Assembly (NCBI RefSeq): GCF_014648275.1
Contig: NZ_BMQU01000006.1
Location: 62,001 to 126,000 of the forward strand
Source: Pseudomonas laurentiana
GTDB lineage: Bacteria; Pseudomonadota; Gammaproteobacteria; Pseudomonadales; Pseudomonadaceae
DNA length: 64,000 nucleotides
Direction of reading: 5' to 3'
Shown: one piece after another, positions 6,405 to 60,865 of the stretch
Numbering within the stretch: the first letter of the stretch is position 1
Layout: every line of letters begins with the position of its first letter
Notes under the pieces: generated by a model
What the model was told of the DNA's origin: nothing
The model's database searches: none
The model's input: the letters and a program-made list of their open reading frames with translations, nothing else
Position numbers and translations under genes: made by a program

Positions 6405-9188
6405 GTGCGTCGGCTCAGGATTGCCATTGGCCTCACCGTCAGCCTGCTGACCCTGTTCTGCCTGTTTCCGGCGTCTGCCGACCATGGCGGTGGCTGGGCT
6501 GTTTTGCTTGACGAGCAAGCCAACCTGCAACTGAGCGATGTACGCTCCGAACGTTACCGAAACCAGTTCAGCCCTATCCAGCTCAGCCAACTCAACGCTG
6601 CCGCCCCCAATCACGCATTGTGGTTGCACTATCGACTCCCCCCGGGCGAGAACGAACAACTGTTGCGTGTCTTCGCCCCGGACCTTTCCAGCCTTGATCT
6701 GTATGTGCTGGATAGCAACGTGCTGCTCAGGCAGTCACTCAATGGCCGTGTCGGCGACACCAGCGAGCCCGTGCTGCGTAGCAGTGACCACTTGTTACGG
6801 CTGCCCAACAGCACGAAGCCACTGGATGTCTATCTACGATTGGTGTCCGATCACCAGTTGCGCCCCGACATTAGCCTGCAACCGGCCGCCGAGGCCGCCG
6901 CCGACCAGCGTGAAGCCGTAATGTTCGGCCTGCTGTTCGGCTGCATCGGCATGCTGATACTGCACAACCTTGCCCGTTTTGCCTATTCGCGCTCGACCAC
7001 CAGCCTGGCGCTGGCTGCGTACCAGGGCCTGATGCTGTTCAGCGCACTGATCCTGCTGAACCTCGGTAGCCCCTGGATCAACCTCTGGCACTCCGCCCAA
7101 ACCCCTGCGGCGTACCTGACAGCGTTGCTGGCAACGCTGTGCGGCCTGGTCTTTACCGCACGCTTTTTCAATGGCTTCGATCAGCCCCGCCTGACGCGCC
7201 TGCTGCAGGCAGACATGCTCTTGATCAGCCTCTGCGGCCTGGTGCTGCTGTTTGTCGATACCCTGCCGCTGAACCTGATGACCTACGCCCTGATGGCGTT
7301 GGGCAGCCTGAGCATGCTGTTGGTGGCCAGCCATCACTGCTACAAGGGCTATGCGCCAGCCAGGCTGCTCACCCTGGCCATGCTGGTGTTCAACATCGGC
7401 TGCCTGGTCGTGCTCCCGGCCTTGCTGGTGCTCACACGCACACCGACCCAATGGTTACTGTTCATCCTGCTCGGTCTGACCGCACTCAGCGGCTTGCTGC
7501 TGAACCTGGCCGTCAGTGAACGCTTGCGCACCATCAGAGAAGCGCGCTTCAGTGCCAGCCGGGCATTGGCTGCAAGCAATGCCGAGGTCAATGCCAAGGC
7601 CGAGTTTCTCGCCAGGATCAGCCATGAAATCCGCACGCCCATGAACGGTGTGCTGGGCATGACAGAACTGCTGCTGGGTACTCCGCTGTCCGTCAAACAG
7701 CGTGACTATGTACAAACTATTCATAGCGCCGGTAACGAGCTGCTTACCCTGATCAACGAGATCCTCGACATCTCCAAGCTGGAGTCCGGGCAGATCGAAC
7801 TCGACGACGTGCAGTTCGACCTCAATGCCCTGATCGAAGACTGCCTGGGTATCTTCCGGGCCAAGGCCGAGCAACAGAATGTCGAGTTGATCAGTTTCAC
7901 CCAACCACAAGTCCCACGGGTTATCAGTGGTGACCCGACACGCCTGCGCCAGGCTCTGCTGGGTCTGTTGGAAAACGCGCTGAAGACCGTCGATCAAGGC
8001 GAAATCCTGTTGGTGGTAGCCCTGGATCAACGCACTGATGCCCCACGCTTGCGCATCGCCGTTCAGGACAGCGGCCAGCCGATGTCCGACAGCGATCGCG
8101 ATACCTTGCTGCAAGCCGAACTGAACAGCCGGCACTACCTCTCTGAAAGCAAGCTGGGCGGGCATCTGGGCCTGGTGATCGCCAAGCAGTTGATCACCCT
8201 GATGCACGGCGAGTTCGGGATCAAGACCAGCCCCAATCAGGGCAACACCCTCTGGATAACCCTGCCGCTGGACCCGCAACGCCTGGAGCAACCTGCCGCC
8301 GACCTGGATGGCCCTTTGCGTGACGCTCGCGTACTGGTAGTGGACGACAACGACACCTGCCGAAAGGTGCTGGTACAGCAGTGCAGTGCCTGGGGCATGA
8401 ACGTCAGCGCCGTACCCTCGGGCAAGGAGGCGCTGGCCCTGCTGCGTACCAAGGCCCATCTGCGGGACTACTTCGATGCGGTACTGCTCGACCAGAACAT
8501 GCCGGGGATGACCGGCATGCAGTTGGCCGCGAAGATCAAGGAAGACCCGAGCCTGAACCACGACATCCTGCTGATCATGCTCACCGGCATCAGCAACGCG
8601 CCGAGCAAGATCATTGCGCGCAACGCCGGGGTAAAGCGGATCCTGGCCAAGCCCGTGGCCGGCTATACCCTCAAGACGACCCTGGCCGAAGAGCTCAGCC
8701 AGCGAACCAAGGGACCGCACCTGCCCCCCATCGCAGCGCTTTCCCAGCAGCCACTGAAGTTACCCAACGACTTCCGCATTCTGGTCGCCGAAGACAACAG
8801 CATTTCGACCAAGGTCATTCGCGGCATGCTGGGCAAGCTCAACCTGGAGCCTGACACGGCCAGCAACGGTGAAGAGGCCCTGTCGGCAATGAAAGCACAG
8901 CGCTATGACCTGGTCCTGATGGATTGCGAAATGCCCGTGCTGGACGGCTTTTCCGCCACGCAACAACTGCGCGCCTGGGAAGCCAACACCCAACGCAAGC
9001 GCACGCCCGTGGTAGCCCTGACCGCGCATATACTTGCCGAACACAAAGAGCGCGCACGCCTGGCCGGCATGGACGGACATATGGCCAAGCCCGTTGAGCT
9101 GTCACAACTGCGCGAACTGATCGAACACTGGGTGGTTCGTCGAGAACAAGAGGCCAGCCAGACGACAGGCACTGATACACTCCTTTGA
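6405..9188 (+). CDS. retS: Hybrid sensor kinase RetS
   Basis: RetS is the inner-membrane hybrid kinase that, in P. aeruginosa, binds GacS and blocks its signalling, lowering the sRNAs that titrate RsmA/RsmE. The 927-residue product has a signal sequence (about 1-25), a periplasmic 7TMR-DISMED2 sensor domain (about 30-160), seven transmembrane helices (about 175-370), a HisKA domain with phospho-acceptor His407 (SHEIRTPMNGVLGM), a HATPase domain (LLENALKT, DSGQP) and two receiver domains with Asp696 (LLDQNMPG) and Asp840 (LMDCEMP). As I recall the P. aeruginosa numbering, these three sites sit at a constant offset of 17-18 residues. The start is GTG, with AAGGAAGG about eight bases before it. 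The position after purH-purD supports the name strongly. Confidence 0.94.
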   Translation: MRRLRIAIGLTVSLLTLFCLFPASADHGGGWAVLLDEQANLQLSDVRSERYRNQFSPIQLSQLNAAAPNHALWLHYRLPPGENEQLLRVFAPDLSSLDLYVLDSNVLLRQSLNGRVGDTSEPVLRSSDHLLRLPNSTKPLDVYLRLVSDHQLRPDISLQPAAEAAADQREAVMFGLLFGCIGMLILHNLARFAYSRSTTSLALAAYQGLMLFSALILLNLGSPWINLWHSAQTPAAYLTALLATLCGLVFTARFFNGFDQPRLTRLLQADMLLISLCGLVLLFVDTLPLNLMTYALMALGSLSMLLVASHHCYKGYAPARLLTLAMLVFNIGCLVVLPALLVLTRTPTQWLLFILLGLTALSGLLLNLAVSERLRTIREARFSASRALAASNAEVNAKAEFLARISHEIRTPMNGVLGMTELLLGTPLSVKQRDYVQTIHSAGNELLTLINEILDISKLESGQIELDDVQFDLNALIEDCLGIFRAKAEQQNVELISFTQPQVPRVISGDPTRLRQALLGLLENALKTVDQGEILLVVALDQRTDAPRLRIAVQDSGQPMSDSDRDTLLQAELNSRHYLSESKLGGHLGLVIAKQLITLMHGEFGIKTSPNQGNTLWITLPLDPQRLEQPAADLDGPLRDARVLVVDDNDTCRKVLVQQCSAWGMNVSAVPSGKEALALLRTKAHLRDYFDAVLLDQNMPGMTGMQLAAKIKEDPSLNHDILLIMLTGISNAPSKIIARNAGVKRILAKPVAGYTLKTTLAEELSQRTKGPHLPPIAALSQQPLKLPNDFRILVAEDNSISTKVIRGMLGKLNLEPDTASNGEEALSAMKAQRYDLVLMDCEMPVLDGFSATQQLRAWEANTQRKRTPVVALTAHILAEHKERARLAGMDGHMAKPVELSQLRELIEHWVVRREQEASQTTGTDTLL

Positions 9189-9212: not shown

Positions 9213-9809
9213 ATGCTTCATGAGTTGTTCAGTGTCTACCTGAAAATGCTCGTGCTCTACAGCCCGTTCTTTGTTCTGTCCTGCTTCATCAGCCTGACAC
9301 GTGGTTACTCCAGCAAGGAGCGCAAGCACCTGGCCTGGAAAGTCGCCATTGGCGTGCTCGTCTCCAGCGTTCTGCTGTACCTGTTTGGACGGGCGATCTT
9401 TGGCATTTTCGGCATCACCGCCGACGCCTTCCGCATCGGTGCGGGCAGTGTGCTATTCATCTCCGCACTAGGCATGGCACAGGGCAAGTCTGCGGTGCAA
9501 ACCGACAACGTGAATCAAGACGTCACCATCGTGCCACTGACCATCCCGCTGACGGTCGGCCCCGGTACCATCGGTGCGTTGCTGGTGATGGGGGTTGGCC
9601 AACCGCACTGGGACGACAAGCTGCTGGCCATCATCAGTATCGCTGCGGCCAGCCTCACGGTCGGCCTGGTACTGTACCTGTCCAACCGCATCGAACGCCT
9701 GCTCGGCGACCAGGGCTTGCAGATCGTCAGCCGGTTGATGGGGCTGTTCGTCTGTGCCCTGGCGGCGCAAATCATCTTTACCGGGATAAAAGGCTACCTT
9801 CTCCCTTAG
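9213..9809 (+). CDS. MarC-family integral membrane protein
   Basis: A 198-residue, very hydrophobic protein with about six transmembrane helices. It carries the MarC/UPF0056 signatures: the first helix with FFVLSCFISLTRGYSSKER, a middle helix with FRIGAGSVLFISALGMAQG, and the conserved VPLTIPLTVGPGTIGALLVMG segment. The family was once linked to multiple antibiotic resistance in E. coli, a link later withdrawn, and its transport substrate is unknown. It starts 24 bases after retS in the same direction, so it could be co-transcribed. Its stop overlaps by four bases with the stop of the convergent unknown gene at 9806, with no terminator between them. Confidence 0.88.
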   Translation: MLHELFSVYLKMLVLYSPFFVLSCFISLTRGYSSKERKHLAWKVAIGVLVSSVLLYLFGRAIFGIFGITADAFRIGAGSVLFISALGMAQGKSAVQTDNVNQDVTIVPLTIPLTVGPGTIGALLVMGVGQPHWDDKLLAIISIAAASLTVGLVLYLSNRIERLLGDQGLQIVSRLMGLFVCALAAQIIFTGIKGYLLP

Positions 9810-10438
9810 AGCTCCAGACTGAGGATTTCTTTCTGCAGGACACTGTTCAACCTCACCAGGACCCGGTCTCGGTGTGTGTGCTCGAACCCGCGCGTATTGA
9901 AGCGCACCAGTTCCGCCCGCGAGGATGAAACAGTCGTGTTCGACTGAAACAGAAAACCGCGGCTCTGCTCCGAGATATTGAGCGTTTCATGGTACAGCAC
10001 CATGTCGACAACACCTGAAGCGCCTTGGCTACAGGGGATCAACTGGAAATAGGCATAGTCCAGGTTCCTCGAGCGGCTCTCGAACAGCGACAAGGCATTG
10101 CCGTCCTTCTCCAGCGCGTCAATCGAACGCCGACTCGCCTCGGCATAAGGCCTGCCGGCCACTTGGGAAATCTTTTCCAGCGCCTGTTCGACCACGCGTT
10201 GTCGACTCGGATCAGGGCGATACGTCGCATCGGCTGGGGTCGCATCCCAGCCAAAGTACTTCAGCTGGTTCTTGTAGTAGCTGTACCAGTCCTCCACCTG
10301 ACCATCCTTATAGGCACTCAAGGCTGCACGCTGGGCAAACAGGGTTGCCAATTGCACAGACTCCCGCTGCTGGGCAGACACACCCGGCAGAAACGAGACC
10401 ACACTGGCCCCCACCACCGACGCTTGAACGTTATCCAT
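9806..10438 (-). CDS. Unknown protein, third member of a three-paralog operon
   Basis: I do not recognise this 210-residue protein. It has no signal peptide, transmembrane helix or known motif. It shares a layout with the two genes upstream: an N-terminal helix-like stretch (ESVQLATLFAQRAAL, residues 26-40), then Trp51 and Gly63-Trp64 with exactly the same W-x11-GW spacing as in both paralogs, a NALSLFE motif (114-120) matching QAFSLFK in the first paralog, a beta-rich middle (GVVDMVLYH) and a C-terminal helical segment rich in charged and leucine residues. The ATG at 10438 was chosen; it lies inside the end of the preceding gene (8-base overlap) and is preceded by CACGGAG, suggesting translational coupling. 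The stop overlaps that of the marC-like gene. Confidence 0.8.
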   Translation of the reverse strand: MDNVQASVVGASVVSFLPGVSAQQRESVQLATLFAQRAALSAYKDGQVEDWYSYYKNQLKYFGWDATPADATYRPDPSRQRVVEQALEKISQVAGRPYAEASRRSIDALEKDGNALSLFESRSRNLDYAYFQLIPCSQGASGVVDMVLYHETLNISEQSRGFLFQSNTTVSSSRAELVRFNTRGFEHTHRDRVLVRLNSVLQKEILSLEL

Positions 10439-11135
10439 GGGTGACCGCTCCGTGAATGGATTCAACCTTGCTGGTGTACGGGAACGCTTGACGCTTTTCT
10501 GCCATCAAGCTCGCCAGTTTCTGGCGATAAGGCTCATACAGACTCGACTCCAGTTGGGCAGAAAAGCCCTGAAGGCGGGTCTCGCCAATCAATGACCGGG
10601 CCGCCAACGGCTCAACCAGCCAATGCTCACCCGGCACTTGCTCAGTGCCCAGGACAACGCTGTTGAACAACACAACAGGCCCTGGCTGAACCACGCCGAC
10701 CTCCAGCGCAATATGGGTAACCGTGCTGGCTTCAAGCGGTTGCACCACTTGCTGGCGAAGCACGTCCAGCACCTGCAGGTCCGGCGCTTGGCGCAAGGCC
10801 TCGACAGCGTTCGCCAGCACCTCACGGAACGCTGGGCACTGGCTGACAAGTTGCGTCTGAAGCGGCTGAACAGGCGCAACAGGCGCTAGCGCCGAAACCG
10901 TTTCTACCGCTTGATACTGCTGTGTCAGCAACCAGCCACGGTCCGTCAGGGCGGTCCGATACGTGCGGTACCACGTCTCATGCTGAGTAAAACGCGAACC
11001 TGCACGCTTGTTTGCCAGCAATTGCGCGTACAGGTGCGAGTCCAATACCGCCTGCCGCTCAGCGTCCTTAACCTGTGGCGCGACAAATAACAGGCTGCCA
11101 CCATTGATCCAAATGCTATAACCGTCGACATCCAT
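10431..11135 (-). CDS. Unknown protein, second member of a three-paralog operon
   Basis: A 234-residue protein of unknown function, most diverged of the three. The N-terminus (MDVDGYSIWINGGSLLFVAP) looks like a beta strand and turn. It is followed by the family's helix (AVLDSHLYAQLLANKRA, about 29-45), Trp55 and Gly67-Trp68 with the W-x11-GW spacing kept, a Pro/Val/Gln-rich linker (about 75-95), helices, and a beta segment (THIALEVGVVQPGPVVLFNS) that corresponds to the same part of the first paralog. The ATG at 11135 has a strong GAGGAGG ribosome binding site seven bases away. It lies 75 bases after the first paralog and overlaps the third by eight bases. Confidence 0.8.
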   Translation of the reverse strand: MDVDGYSIWINGGSLLFVAPQVKDAERQAVLDSHLYAQLLANKRAGSRFTQHETWYRTYRTALTDRGWLLTQQYQAVETVSALAPVAPVQPLQTQLVSQCPAFREVLANAVEALRQAPDLQVLDVLRQQVVQPLEASTVTHIALEVGVVQPGPVVLFNSVVLGTEQVPGEHWLVEPLAARSLIGETRLQGFSAQLESSLYEPYRQKLASLMAEKRQAFPYTSKVESIHGAVTHG

Positions 11136-11210: not shown

Positions 11211-11903
11211 TCAGATTTCGTAGTCGAGGATTTTGGACAGCGCACGATCGCCCAACTGCTGCTCAATGCGCGAGCGCAGACGATCGTAGATCACCTTGTT
11301 GAATGACAGCGCTGCAGTGCCTTTGTAGGTTTCGGAAGAAGCCGAATCCCAGTCAAAGAACAGCACATCCACATCATGGGCGCAGGCACGACGCTGAATA
11401 GCACCCAGGGCCATGACCACCTCACCATCGGCAGTCTCGATGCACGAAGCAACACCTACCACCGCGGCCGTCTTTTGGTTCACGTTACGCTTGAACAGCG
11501 AAAAAGCCTGATCGCTCTCGGGCAGGCCACCGATCGCCTTGCGTGCCAGATCCCCGAGTACCGCCACCGCTGGGGCACCTGGTACTGCAGCAGCTGCGGC
11601 TGCCTGGACAGCCTTGACCACCACGTTCGAGAGTTTGATCGACTGACCGGAAGTCGTTTCCTTTTCGTAGGTGCGATGCGCTGTCACCCAGCCACAATCT
11701 TGCATGACCTTCAGGAACTGATTGAACCAGGCCTCTCCCTGAGTCGTCGGATCAAACAGTTTGTTGGTCGCCAGCGTGGCAAACAGGTAAGCGTTTTTGG
11801 CGTCGTTACGGCTTTGCAGGGACATGCCGGCGCCGAATGCAACCAGCGAGCTTTCCACTACCGCTGCAGAATCGATGCTAAGTACTTCGTTGTTTTCGCT
11901 CAT
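11211..11903 (-). CDS. Unknown protein, first member of a three-paralog operon
   Basis: A 230-residue protein that I do not recognise. It has no signal peptide. The order is: N-terminal segment with a hydrophobic stretch (SAAVVESSLVAFGAGMSL), helix (DAKNAYLFATLATNKLF), Trp59 and Gly71-Trp72 (W-x11-GW, the spacing shared by all three paralogs), an Ala/Val-rich hydrophobic segment (about 94-125, with a run of six alanines), AFSLFKR (133-139), beta strands (EVVMALGAI, VDVLFFDW) and a charged helical C-terminus. The Ala/Val-rich segment is amphipathic to hydrophobic and could insert in a membrane, but that is only a guess. The ATG at 11903 was chosen over one 39 bases upstream because the ribosome binding site AAGGA lies just before it. 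Confidence 0.82.
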   Translation of the reverse strand: MSENNEVLSIDSAAVVESSLVAFGAGMSLQSRNDAKNAYLFATLATNKLFDPTTQGEAWFNQFLKVMQDCGWVTAHRTYEKETTSGQSIKLSNVVVKAVQAAAAAAVPGAPAVAVLGDLARKAIGGLPESDQAFSLFKRNVNQKTAAVVGVASCIETADGEVVMALGAIQRRACAHDVDVLFFDWDSASSETYKGTAALSFNKVIYDRLRSRIEQQLGDRALSKILDYEI

Positions 11904-11968
11904 GATTGAGTAGTCCTTGTAGTGATCGGAAAATCCCTTCACTGGGATTTCCCGATCAAACTACTCAA
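11904..11968 (-). promoter_or_regulatory. Structured 5' leader with CsrA/RsmA-like site over the ribosome binding site
   Basis: Read on the minus strand, GATCGGGAAATCCC and GGGATTTTCCGATC (inner arms, 11944-11957 and 11924-11937) pair over all 14 positions with one G-U, around an AGTGAA loop. The single mismatch is a G-U only in the minus-strand RNA. Outside it, TGAGTAGT (11960-11967) can pair with ACTACTCA (11907-11914), or its GTAGT part with a second ACTAC (11919-11923). Between the two ACTAC copies lies AAGG of the ribosome binding site. The sequence TACAAGGA (11914-11921) matches the core of the published CsrA consensus. The pairing was worked out by eye; the regulatory role is inferred. 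Confidence 0.6.
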
Positions 11969-12010
11969 ACAGGCCATGGCAGGTCAGGAGCGAAAACCTT
12001 CCTCGGCAGA

Positions 12011-13711
12011 TCAGCCTTGCTCAGGGTACCAACGTGGCGTGTAGACCCACTGGCCACCCTCAGGACGAGGGAACACGCAGGTAGTGGAGGATCCCACCAG
12101 CACCATGGTGCGCATATCCACCAGCTCAGGAGTCAGCTCGCCCAGGGTGATTGCCCGTAATGTCTGCCCCGGCCTACCAATATCACGGCCAAGGACTACC
12201 GGGGTTTGCGCTGTGCGGTGCTGACGCACGATATCCATGGCGCGCCCAAGCTGCCAGGGCCGCGCGCGTGAGATCGGGTTGTAGAAGGCCAGCGCCAGGT
12301 CAGCCTGAGCGGCCAGGTCGAGGCGCTTTTCGATGATCGACCAAGGCTTGAGGTTGTCCGACAGCGACAGCACACAGAAGTCATGGCCCAATGGCGCACC
12401 CGCTTGAGCCGCAGTAGCCAGCGAAGCCGAAACCCCCGGCAGGATCTCCAGGTCAACCGCATGCCAGGCCGGATCGTCCGACTCATGAAGGGCTTCAAGT
12501 ACCGCCGCCGCCATGGCGAACACGCCAGGGTCACCCGACGACACGACCACTACCGAACGACCCTGAACCGCCAGCTCGAACGCGTGACGTGCTCGCTGCA
12601 TCTCTTCGCGGTTATCGGTGCAATGCAGTACCTGATCGTCGCGGAATGGGCCGGCCATACGCACGTAGGTCTCGTAACCCAGTACATCGTTGGCACGGGC
12701 CAGCTCGGCCTTGACCGCCGGAACCATGAACTCCGCAGCCCCCGGCCCCAGGCCGATCACCGCCAGTCGACCACGGGCACGACCGATCGACTGAACGTCG
12801 ATAGGCTGACTGGCCACAGCAATGGCAATCCCTTCACCCATCGCCTGAGGCGGTAGCAGTTGAGGCAGCGCCTGTGCCGCCAGCGCCACGACACTTTCAG
12901 CAGCCGGAGCGAAACGCAGGGCAACGCCCAGCTCAGCCGCAGCATCACGTAGCGCCGGGCTGCTCATCTCGCTGTCTGCCGCCAGCAGGCAAGCCAGTGC
13001 AGGTTCGGCAATCTTCGCCGCCTGCAAGGCAGCCCGCACGGCCTGAGCGGGCTCGGGCAGTGTTGCACTGATTGCCACCAATACGCAGCGAGGGTGAATC
13101 AGCAGTTCGTTGGCGGAGGGCTCACGGGCTTCACAACCCACACGAATCGAACGCTGTGCATGCTCATCATGTGGCAGTTGCGCCTGAGCCAGCCAGGGCG
13201 CCGCCCCCTCAATACGCACCGGCTCACCGGCCAACAGGTCAGAGACAAAGCGCTTGCCCAGCTCAAGGTCAGCCAGTGCATAGCCACTGGGCGGGTTGAG
13301 CAGGCAGGTACCAAAACGCAGTTCGCCACTGGTGGTAATCGCTGCCGCCACACCCAGGCCAGCCCCAATCTCGCGGGCCATTACGTTGACGCCACCCAGG
13401 CCGCCCAGCAAGGGCACCACGGCGCTGCCATCTTCGGCCACGGCCAGCACCGGCGGCTCGGCGCCCTTCTCCAACAACAGGTCGGCCAAGGTACGGATGA
13501 CGATACCGGCGGCACACAGGGCGATGATCGGCGTGTCCTGCTGATACAACTGACGCAGGGTCTGGCCGAACGCCTGATAACTCAGGTCGACACCCTCGAC
13601 CCGGCCTGCCAGACCATGGATAAGGGCGTCGGGATACACCTGCTGGATTTTCCGGGCAGTGGCCAGGCTGCCCTTGCCAAGAATCACGATGGCCGGAGCC
13701 TTGCGCACCAT
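12011..13711 (-). CDS. cobJ: CbiG-CobJ fusion: precorrin-3B C17-methyltransferase
   Basis: CobJ methylates C-17 of the corrin precursor and contracts the ring. This 566-residue protein is more than twice the size of a lone CobJ. Residues about 1-320 resemble CbiG: an N-terminal domain (IIALCAAGIVIRTLADLL, PLLGGLGGVN) and a C-terminal CbiG_C/CobE-like domain (NELLIHPRCVLVAISATLPEP). From about 325 a SAM-dependent tetrapyrrole methylase follows (LAVIGLGPGAAEFMVPAV, VVVVSSGDPGVFAMA, ILPGVSASLATAAQ, LALAFYNPISRAR). The ATG at 13711 shares its A with the cobI stop (TGATG). It is the last gene of the leftward cobGHIJ operon. Confidence 0.92.
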   Translation of the reverse strand: MVRKAPAIVILGKGSLATARKIQQVYPDALIHGLAGRVEGVDLSYQAFGQTLRQLYQQDTPIIALCAAGIVIRTLADLLLEKGAEPPVLAVAEDGSAVVPLLGGLGGVNVMAREIGAGLGVAAAITTSGELRFGTCLLNPPSGYALADLELGKRFVSDLLAGEPVRIEGAAPWLAQAQLPHDEHAQRSIRVGCEAREPSANELLIHPRCVLVAISATLPEPAQAVRAALQAAKIAEPALACLLAADSEMSSPALRDAAAELGVALRFAPAAESVVALAAQALPQLLPPQAMGEGIAIAVASQPIDVQSIGRARGRLAVIGLGPGAAEFMVPAVKAELARANDVLGYETYVRMAGPFRDDQVLHCTDNREEMQRARHAFELAVQGRSVVVVSSGDPGVFAMAAAVLEALHESDDPAWHAVDLEILPGVSASLATAAQAGAPLGHDFCVLSLSDNLKPWSIIEKRLDLAAQADLALAFYNPISRARPWQLGRAMDIVRQHRTAQTPVVLGRDIGRPGQTLRAITLGELTPELVDMRTMVLVGSSTTCVFPRPEGGQWVYTPRWYPEQG

Positions 13712-14442
13712 CACCCTTGCCACCTCTCACCCGGCACAATAATCAGCGAGAAATAAGGTGATGACTGCGGGTCGACCTCATCCAGCGCGACGATCTTCTG
13801 ATTGGCCATGGTCGCCCGCTCGACATACAACGCTCGCTCGGCCAGACCCAGTTCACTCAGCACCTGACGGACCTTGGGGAAGTTGCGCCCCAGCTTCATG
13901 ATCACCGCCGCGTCGGCATCGGCCAGGCGGCGCTTGAGCTCTTCGTGCGGCAGCACGCCCGAGAGGACCGACAGACTCTGGTTGCGATAGACCAGCGGCG
14001 CCCCCAGCACAGAGGCGCCACCGAGCATCGAACAGACGCCTGGCACCACTTCGGCGGCGTAACGCTCGGCGAGGCGGTCGTGCAGGTACATGTAGGAGCC
14101 GTAGAAGAACGGATCACCTTCACAGATCACCGCCACATCGCGACCGGCATCCAGGTGCGCGGCCACTTCAAGGCTGGCCTGATCGTAGAAATCGCTGATG
14201 ACCTGCTCATAGGACAACGGCGCTGGCAGTGCTTCGGTGGTCACCGGATAAACCAGGGGCAGCAGGGTCTGGGCATCCTGCAAATGCGCTTCGATGATGC
14301 CGAACGCATTGCCACGCTTGCCCTTGGCGACAAAGTAAGCCACCACCGGCGCTTCGCGCAGCAGGCGCAAGGCCTTGACGGTGATCAGTTCCGGATCACC
14401 TGGGCCGACGCCCAGGCCAAGCAAACGTCCACGAGCCTGCAT
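13711..14442 (-). CDS. cobI: Precorrin-2 C20-methyltransferase
   Basis: CobI adds a SAM-derived methyl group to C-20 of precorrin-2, giving precorrin-3A. The 243-residue product has the usual tetrapyrrole-methylase signatures: an N-terminal [22 protein letters not shown] split across the first loop, the [21 protein letters not shown] loop, and [19 protein letters not shown]. Its length fits the family. The ATG at 14442 overlaps the cobH stop, with GAGGTGGAG just before it; a GTG one codon earlier is possible. The tight overlaps with cobH and cobJ show one transcript with coupled translation. Confidence 0.95.
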
Positions 14443-60610: not shown

Positions 60611-60697
60611 GCCCAGATGGTGAAATTGGTAGACACGCCAGCTTCAGGTGCTGGTGACCTTACGGTCGTGGAAGTTCGAGTCTTCTTCTGGGCACCA
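60611..60697 (+). tRNA. tRNA-Leu (anticodon CAG), first copy
   Basis: An 87-base gene. Acceptor arms GCCCAGA and TCTGGGC pair and the gene encodes its 3' ACCA. The anticodon stem CAGC / GCTG encloses the loop TTCAGGT, so the anticodon is CAG (reads CUG). GTTCGAGTC is the T-loop and the long variable arm is that of a type II tRNA, as leucine requires. An identical copy lies at 60779. Confidence 0.97.
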
Positions 60698-60778: not shown

Positions 60779-60865
60779 GCCCAGATGGTGAAATTGGTAG
60801 ACACGCCAGCTTCAGGTGCTGGTGACCTTACGGTCGTGGAAGTTCGAGTCTTCTTCTGGGCACCA
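60779..60865 (+). tRNA. tRNA-Leu (anticodon CAG), second copy
   Basis: This gene is base-for-base identical to the copy at 60611-60697 over all 87 bases, including the encoded 3' ACCA. The flanks differ, so the pair is not part of a longer repeat. The two copies are 81 bases apart and probably lie on one transcript that ends at the terminator 60876-60899. CUG is the most used leucine codon in GC-rich pseudomonads, which fits a doubled gene. Confidence 0.97.

Follow-up and report, generated by a model that had tools for sequence, protein, structure and literature searches.

A covarying RNA structure over the ribosome binding site of a predicted Cyt-fold operon in Pseudomonas, with a predicted promoter in the DNA of its 5' strand

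The window analysed here is a stretch of 64,000 nucleotides from Pseudomonas laurentiana (contig NZ_BMQU01000006.1). The subject is the leader of a trio of genes on the minus strand, which lies between a cobJ-type gene and a gene for a RetS-like sensor. The genes of the locus are as follows.

12011..13723, minus strand: cobJ-type gene, which we take to be cobJ; final open reading frame of a codirectional cob-like run (16389 to 12011) heading toward the trio
11211..11903, minus strand: gene 1 of the trio, 230 aa, ATG at 11903-11901, product with a predicted Cyt/volvatoxin/Evf-like fold
10431..11135, minus strand: gene 2 of the trio, preferred ATG at 11135, preceded by the Shine-Dalgarno (SD) sequence GAGGAGG
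9806..10438, minus strand: gene 3 of the trio, preferred start ATG at 10438 (alternative TTG at 10465), with CACGGAG (10454-10448) upstream
6405-9188: sensor gene 2-5 kb from the leader, presumably RetS from its domain order

Structure comparison of the predicted model of the gene 1 product (pLDDT 77.8) indicated a fold shared with Cyt delta-endotoxin, volvatoxin A2 and Evf. The sequence identity was 8-10% in the best ten VIA rows, and the Foldseek TM values were only 0.3 to 0.5. The protein is predicted to be a member of the Cyt/Evf fold superfamily. None of the three trio proteins matched Pfam or NCBIfam above the curated cut-offs or PADLOC at E up to 1, the gene 1 protein matched no PDB sequence at E up to 1, and a literature search on the trio found nothing. 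Between genes 1 and 2 there is a hairpin of 12-13 bp (11196-11168), and hairpin-like repeats were seen by eye in this gap in many relatives; one copy (L012) is followed by a T-run and looks terminator-like. This hairpin may lower the expression of genes 2 and 3.

The leader RNA of gene 1 was predicted to fold into two stacked stems, which are made up of the following elements.

11960..11968, minus strand: 5' strand of the lower stem, TTGAGTAGT, overlapping the predicted -10
11944..11958, minus strand: 5' arm of the upper hairpin
11923..11937, minus strand: 3' arm of the upper hairpin
11914..11918, minus strand: SD sequence AAGGA, with AAG in the bulge between the stems and GA paired in the lower stem
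11906..11914, minus strand: 3' strand of the lower stem, ACTACTCAA, which begins at the last SD base and stops just short of the start codon

On the minus strand, TTGAGTAGT (11968-11960) and ACTACTCAA (11914-11906) are complementary to each other. The two stems are separated by a bulge of 7 nt on the 3' side, and the lower stem stops just short of the AUG. The upper hairpin is the minus-strand hairpin with a G-U pair described in the original prediction, and its arms (11958-11944 and 11937-11923) form 15 pairs, 14 of them Watson-Crick and one G-U. RNA folding of the leader had been proposed as a check, and folding of 11968-11900 gave -35.6 kcal/mol versus a mean of -14.3 for shuffled sequences (z -7.88), with 0 of 200 shuffles as good. 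The structure is therefore far beyond chance.

The original prediction had also stated that an arm lying 5' of the hairpin can pair with either of two ACTAC copies, giving two exclusive structures. The two copies do flank AAGG, the second lying at the foot of the hairpin (11923-11919), and both pairings can form in the window. However, the fold with the near copy was 5 to 8.5 kcal/mol worse than the preferred one: it had -31.5 kcal/mol when the pairing was enforced (5.4 worse) and -28.4 when AAGGA-AUG was held open, compared with -36.9 for the preferred fold, and its equilibrium probability was about 0.0002. In the closest relative, P. defluvii (L031, 93% protein identity), AAGAC stands in place of the near copy, and under the constraint just a couple of pairs remained at this position. 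Thus, the two-structure switch was not conserved there, and we rejected it as a conserved mechanism.

A search of the whole window against Rfam at the gathering score gave no hit other than two tRNAs, which lie outside the leader. Two tRNA genes on the plus strand (60611-60694 and 60779-60862) lie near each other and have equal scores. For 11850-12050, no Rfam family was found at E up to 1, and the reading as a riboswitch or known RNA family was rejected. The reading as an intrinsic terminator was rejected for lack of a U-tract: on the minus strand of the window no terminator-like site was found from cobJ to gene 1, and a T-run after the hairpin was seen in 0 of the 46 motif-bearing leaders compared below.

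Relatives of gene 1 were found by protein search in 130 of 199 Pseudomonas genomes. The search of named genomes gave 32 loci, the nearest in P. defluvii (93%). The start was clear in 54 leaders, and the removal of 7 exact duplicates left 47 distinct leaders. Eight of the first 30 loci (L011, L019, L023, L024 and L026-L029) were excluded from the 47 because the start codon lay far upstream of the match. From 40 of the further loci found by the protein search, 20 were picked by eye for scoring and the other 20 were inspected by eye; L068 gave no score. The 46 leaders that bear the motif described below fell into 17 sequence clusters (average linkage, 35% distance cut). A cobJ-like end (YTPRWY plus a few residues) lies directly upstream in 44 of the 47 leaders and is missing in L003, L034 and L038. 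The codirectional cobJ-type C-terminal end YTPRWYP was found just upstream in 40/47, L021 has YTPRWYG, and in L041, L042 and L047 a YTPRWYP-type end was seen by eye in a frame other than the one reported by the script. The L034 contig, labelled as a Paucimonas sp. MAG, has a trio leader and a gene (62% identity) of Pseudomonas type and lacks a cobJ-like end directly upstream, which points to either a binning error or a transfer.

The comparison of these leaders revealed a bipartite motif, GGAA followed by TAnnnT, which resembles a promoter. Its elements in the window are listed here.

11992..12002, minus strand: GGAA-N4-TTC element (GGAAGGTTTTC), GGAA at 12002-11999, abutting the -35
11982..11987, minus strand: -35-like CTGACC, 18 bp from the -10 in the window and 17 in the 38-nt spacing class
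11958..11963, minus strand: predicted -10 TAGTTT, TAnnnTG in most relatives
11950..11953, minus strand: predicted transcription start region, placed by the customary distance from -10 to +1; it falls within the 5' arm of the hairpin

In 46 of the 47 distinct leaders, GGAA stands exactly 38 nt (44 leaders) or 39 nt (2 leaders) ahead of TAnnnT, and among those 46 no other spacing between 15 and 60 occurred. The 38-nt spacing was found in 16 of the 17 clusters, and 39 nt belongs to the window's own cluster. The only leader of the 47 without the motif was L021; L024 (spacing 39) and L068 (38) carry it by eye and stand outside the 46/47 count. The distance from TA to ATG varied from 45 to 60 nt. 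This combination of a rigid spacing upstream and an elastic one downstream is a promoter-like pattern. In a logo of the 46 leaders, GGAA, TA and T are fully conserved by construction, as the leaders were selected for the motif, so the evidence is the 46/47 count and not this conservation. The cluster-weighted logo gave T 0.94, T 0.88 and C 1.00 at offsets 8-10, C 0.94 at offset 15 and 0.87 for the G after the T, and most positions of the spacer carried just 0.0 to 0.3 bits. The -35-like hexamer matches TTGACA in part (TGAC); the conserved C at offset 15 is preferentially followed by TG, and many of the 46 leaders are compatible with a CTGAC-like -35 spaced 17 bp from the -10. A simple scan for consensus sigma-70 promoters called none in the leader region. 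A stricter form of the motif matched 29 times in 396,581 bases from the 32 named loci, all 29 at the trio leader (29/32 loci), and once in the window, again at the trio leader. From these observations we infer a conserved promoter directly behind cobJ, with its start predicted inside the hairpin. The GGAA-N4-TTC element is possibly an activator or repressor site, and we know of no regulator that matches it.

We then examined the pairing of the lower stem across relatives, a check that had likewise been proposed at the outset. The best contiguous helix between the strand from GGAA to TA+4 and the last 18 nt plus ATG was scored, and the partners were exchanged between clusters. With 17 clusters, the native pairs averaged -14.0 versus -11.2 kcal/mol for the swapped ones, and the native mean was reached in 1 of 20,000 permutations (3 of 20,000 in a repeat). 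The controls, two upstream and two coding stretches, were flat (p 0.91, 0.58, 0.26 and 0.47). The segments had been picked after inspection of the leaders. Over 12 settings, which combined 3' lengths of 14, 18 and 24 with cluster cuts giving 27, 17, 16 or 10 clusters, the native value was reached in 0 to 180 of 20,000 permutations, and the test was weakest at 10 clusters (23-180 of 20,000). By part (eleven tests in total), the signal came from the late spacer together with the -10 (p 4e-4). Scored alone, neither of the other parts showed a clear excess: the GGAA part was borderline (0.053), and the early spacer gave no signal (0.56). An earlier RNAduplex test with a 42-nt strand gave -13.8 for native versus -11.0 for swapped pairs, with long internal loops mixed in, and this scoring was superseded by the contiguous-helix score. 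For the upper hairpin (stretch behind the -10 against stretch before the SD), 0 of 20,000 swaps matched the native pairing.

Six further leaders from a separate lineage outside the GGAA-38 count (L023, L026, L027, L029, L063 and L066) form a lower stem from different sequences (TTCGTTAGT / ACTAATGAA and variants), and this stem likewise overlaps a TAnnnT. Together with the 46, a helix of -9 kcal/mol or better lies in the spacer/-10 strand of 36 of 52 leaders and is weaker in 16. Among the pairs formed in the 52, every position of the 5' strand except the T and A of the -10 (16 of 18) showed Watson-Crick pairs altered on both sides. This table takes in only formed pairs, and the decisive control is therefore the swap test. 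In one group the lower stem is built from the GGAA site instead, and TAnnGTG is retained. Overall, the comparison supports the view that the RNA structure covering the ribosome binding site (RBS) is genuine and under selection, with compensatory change across relatives.

We propose that this leader acts as a promoter-choice switch, in which the read-through RNA would be closed and the own-promoter RNA open, and we put the probability of this reading at roughly 55%. It builds on features seen in the sequence (a conserved motif in two parts, a lower stem that covaries, the lack of a terminator with a U-tract, and the predicted opening costs) and adds to these the start site of the promoter, read-through from cob and a block of translation as proposed parts. 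The trio would have its own promoter just behind cobJ, consisting of the GGAA-N4-TTC site, the CTGAC-like -35 and the TAnnnTG -10. The DNA of the spacer and -10 (in one group, of the GGAA site) would double as the code for the strand that pairs with the ribosome site. A read-through RNA of the cob operon would contain this strand and form both the lower and the upper stem, closing the stretch from SD to AUG. The own-promoter RNA would begin inside the hairpin, lack the 5' strand and retain only a shortened hairpin close to its 5' end, and its RBS would be open because the promoter sits in the DNA of the 5' strand. The Cyt-fold proteins would then be made only when the own promoter fires, with no leak from transcription of the vitamin B12 genes.

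The predicted energies are consistent with such a difference between the two RNAs. Opening of positions -14 to +3 was predicted to cost a mean of 10.3 kcal/mol in RNA from upstream of the promoter versus 4.4 kcal/mol in RNA from TA+12. The cost was higher in the long RNA in 45 of the 46 leaders, and by 3 or more in 39/46. The hairpin begins between TA+6 and TA+12 in all 46 leaders (median TA+6), so a start near TA+12 would also cut the upper stem. The codirectional cob-like genes and the lack of a terminator-like site would permit read-through.

One lineage differed from this picture. In 17 leaders sampled from L074-L100, TAGTGT or TAGGGT and the hairpin are kept and the lower stem is missing, with -11.1 kcal/mol for native versus -10.4 for swapped pairs. 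The cost of opening the RBS averaged 6.1 versus 4.8 kcal/mol and was higher in 10 of the 17. The block is thus not kept everywhere. Many of the L074-L100 leaders have a different upstream block, GATGTTTGTCGTCTGGAAA or similar.

Should the true start lie further upstream, the leader would be an ordinary structured leader. Transcription would then begin upstream of 11968, or come from the cob operon only, the two-stem structure itself would set or regulate gene 1 translation, for instance through temperature, a ligand, an sRNA or a protein, and TAnnnT would be conserved for another cause. The covariation of the lower stem agrees with this account, as do the full upper hairpin (from TA+6 in most leaders), which is intact only in RNA begun upstream, and the second, weaker fold 5.4 kcal/mol above the best one in the window. 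However, the fixed GGAA-N34-TAnnnT spacing with its variable interior is the mark of a promoter bound as DNA, and TAnnGTG is retained in the group that pairs elsewhere. Between the stop codon of the upstream gene and GGAA there is also little space for another promoter (8 nt in the window), and no Rfam family appeared at E up to 1. We consider this account unlikely, though a serious competitor to the promoter-choice switch.

The inverted repeat could instead serve the cob operon by ending or protecting the cobJ mRNA, the overlap with the RBS being a by-product. Its position right behind the cobJ-like end in 44 of the 47 leaders and its very stable fold would suit such a role. However, it has no U-tract, and its 3' strand tracks the RBS and AUG. 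The lower stem is also kept, at -10.8 to -15.1 kcal/mol, in L003, L034 and L038, where the upstream open reading frame is not cobJ-like. These features make a role in the cob operon improbable.

The original prediction had proposed that RsmA/RsmE binds TACAAGGA over the SD in competition with two alternative stems, which would tie the operon to Gac/Rsm via RetS. Much of its description was borne out: TACAAGGA (11921-11914) matches the CsrA core at 8/8 positions (best 8/12 for the full 12-position consensus), CACGGAG precedes gene 3, the RetS-type sensor lies 2-5 kb off, and the window sequence allows the alternative ACTAC pairing. The core, however, was not conserved. Of the 46 leaders, only that of the window had the 8/8 match, and at least 7/8 was reached in 5/46 leaders versus 4 of 43 window genes, a set that probably includes gene 1. 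The shorter ANGGA was commoner in the leaders (37/46), which share ancestry, than among window genes (12/43), a point in favour of the Rsm reading. Judging by these counts, the conserved part of the site is the ordinary AAGGA SD, and no RUACARGGAUGU-like site is kept in relatives. In the accessible part of PMC7937890, RsmA/CsrA is described as preferring GGA in hairpin loops. In the predicted folds of the trio leader the GGA lies outside the loop of a short hairpin: it straddles the bulge and the lower stem in the long RNA and is single-stranded in most own-RNA folds. The second ACTAC is also lost in L031. A transcription start inside the hairpin had been named beforehand as a result that would speak against the Rsm switch, and the conserved promoter motif places the predicted start (11953-11950) there. 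The same paper holds Rsm-target data for P. putida KT2440; four tags and gene names that might denote the operon, if KT2440 carries it, were absent from its main text. With the adjacency of the RetS-like gene as the sole link found, we regard regulation by RsmA/RsmE as very improbable. Such a CsrA-like match at an SD means little without conservation.

The promoter-choice switch resembles the leader of the lysozyme gene e of phage T4, as described in the accessible part of a review (PMC3014915). There, the long read-through RNA closes the SD and AUG in a helix, late promoters lie inside the DNA of the 5' strand, and their own transcripts lack this strand and are translated. The effect is given as 100-fold, related T4-type e leaders are described in the same way, and the logic is that a harmful product stays silent until its time (PMC3014915). 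The trio leader shares the predicted RBS-closing helix in the long RNA, and the DNA of its 5' strand carries part of the conserved promoter-like motif; a covarying helix over the SD and/or AUG was found in the long RNA, and it is absent in one lineage. It differs in that the trio is an operon on a bacterial chromosome, located between cobJ and a retS-like gene, and that its predicted promoter is sigma-70-like and accompanied by a GGAA-N4-TTC site. The proposed source of read-through is the cob operon, and the closure is predicted from sequence here, whereas it was measured in T4. A second parallel comes from the IS10 and IS50 transposase genes, where read-through RNA carries a 5' inverted repeat that masks the ribosome site and shields the gene from outside transcription. 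The accessible part of PMC4265352 gave no confirmation of this shielding. In the trio, in contrast, the strand is promoter DNA and not a terminal repeat, and no mobile element end was noticed. CsrA/RsmA-repressed leaders share with the trio leader a GGA at the SD beside a hairpin, but the trio GGA is outside the hairpin loop and the consensus is unconserved in relatives.

Beyond the window, and with a little less than even confidence, we suggest that these leaders are a widespread, fast-changing insulation device of Pseudomonas in which the pairing is conserved. The promoter DNA would serve as the strand against the RBS, and the Cyt-fold operons would be deaf to cob transcription. The strands would differ by lineage, taken from the spacer and -10 or from the GGAA site. 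This would place the logic of T4 lysozyme on a bacterial chromosome, with the GGAA-N4-TTC regulator site in addition. If this is right, promoter DNA would be under selection for RNA pairing in transcripts that the promoter itself does not make, and the choice of start site would by itself set translation. A risky gene would be insulated from its neighbours without a terminator, and other such loci could be recognised by a promoter lying within the 5' strand of a stem that closes the RBS.
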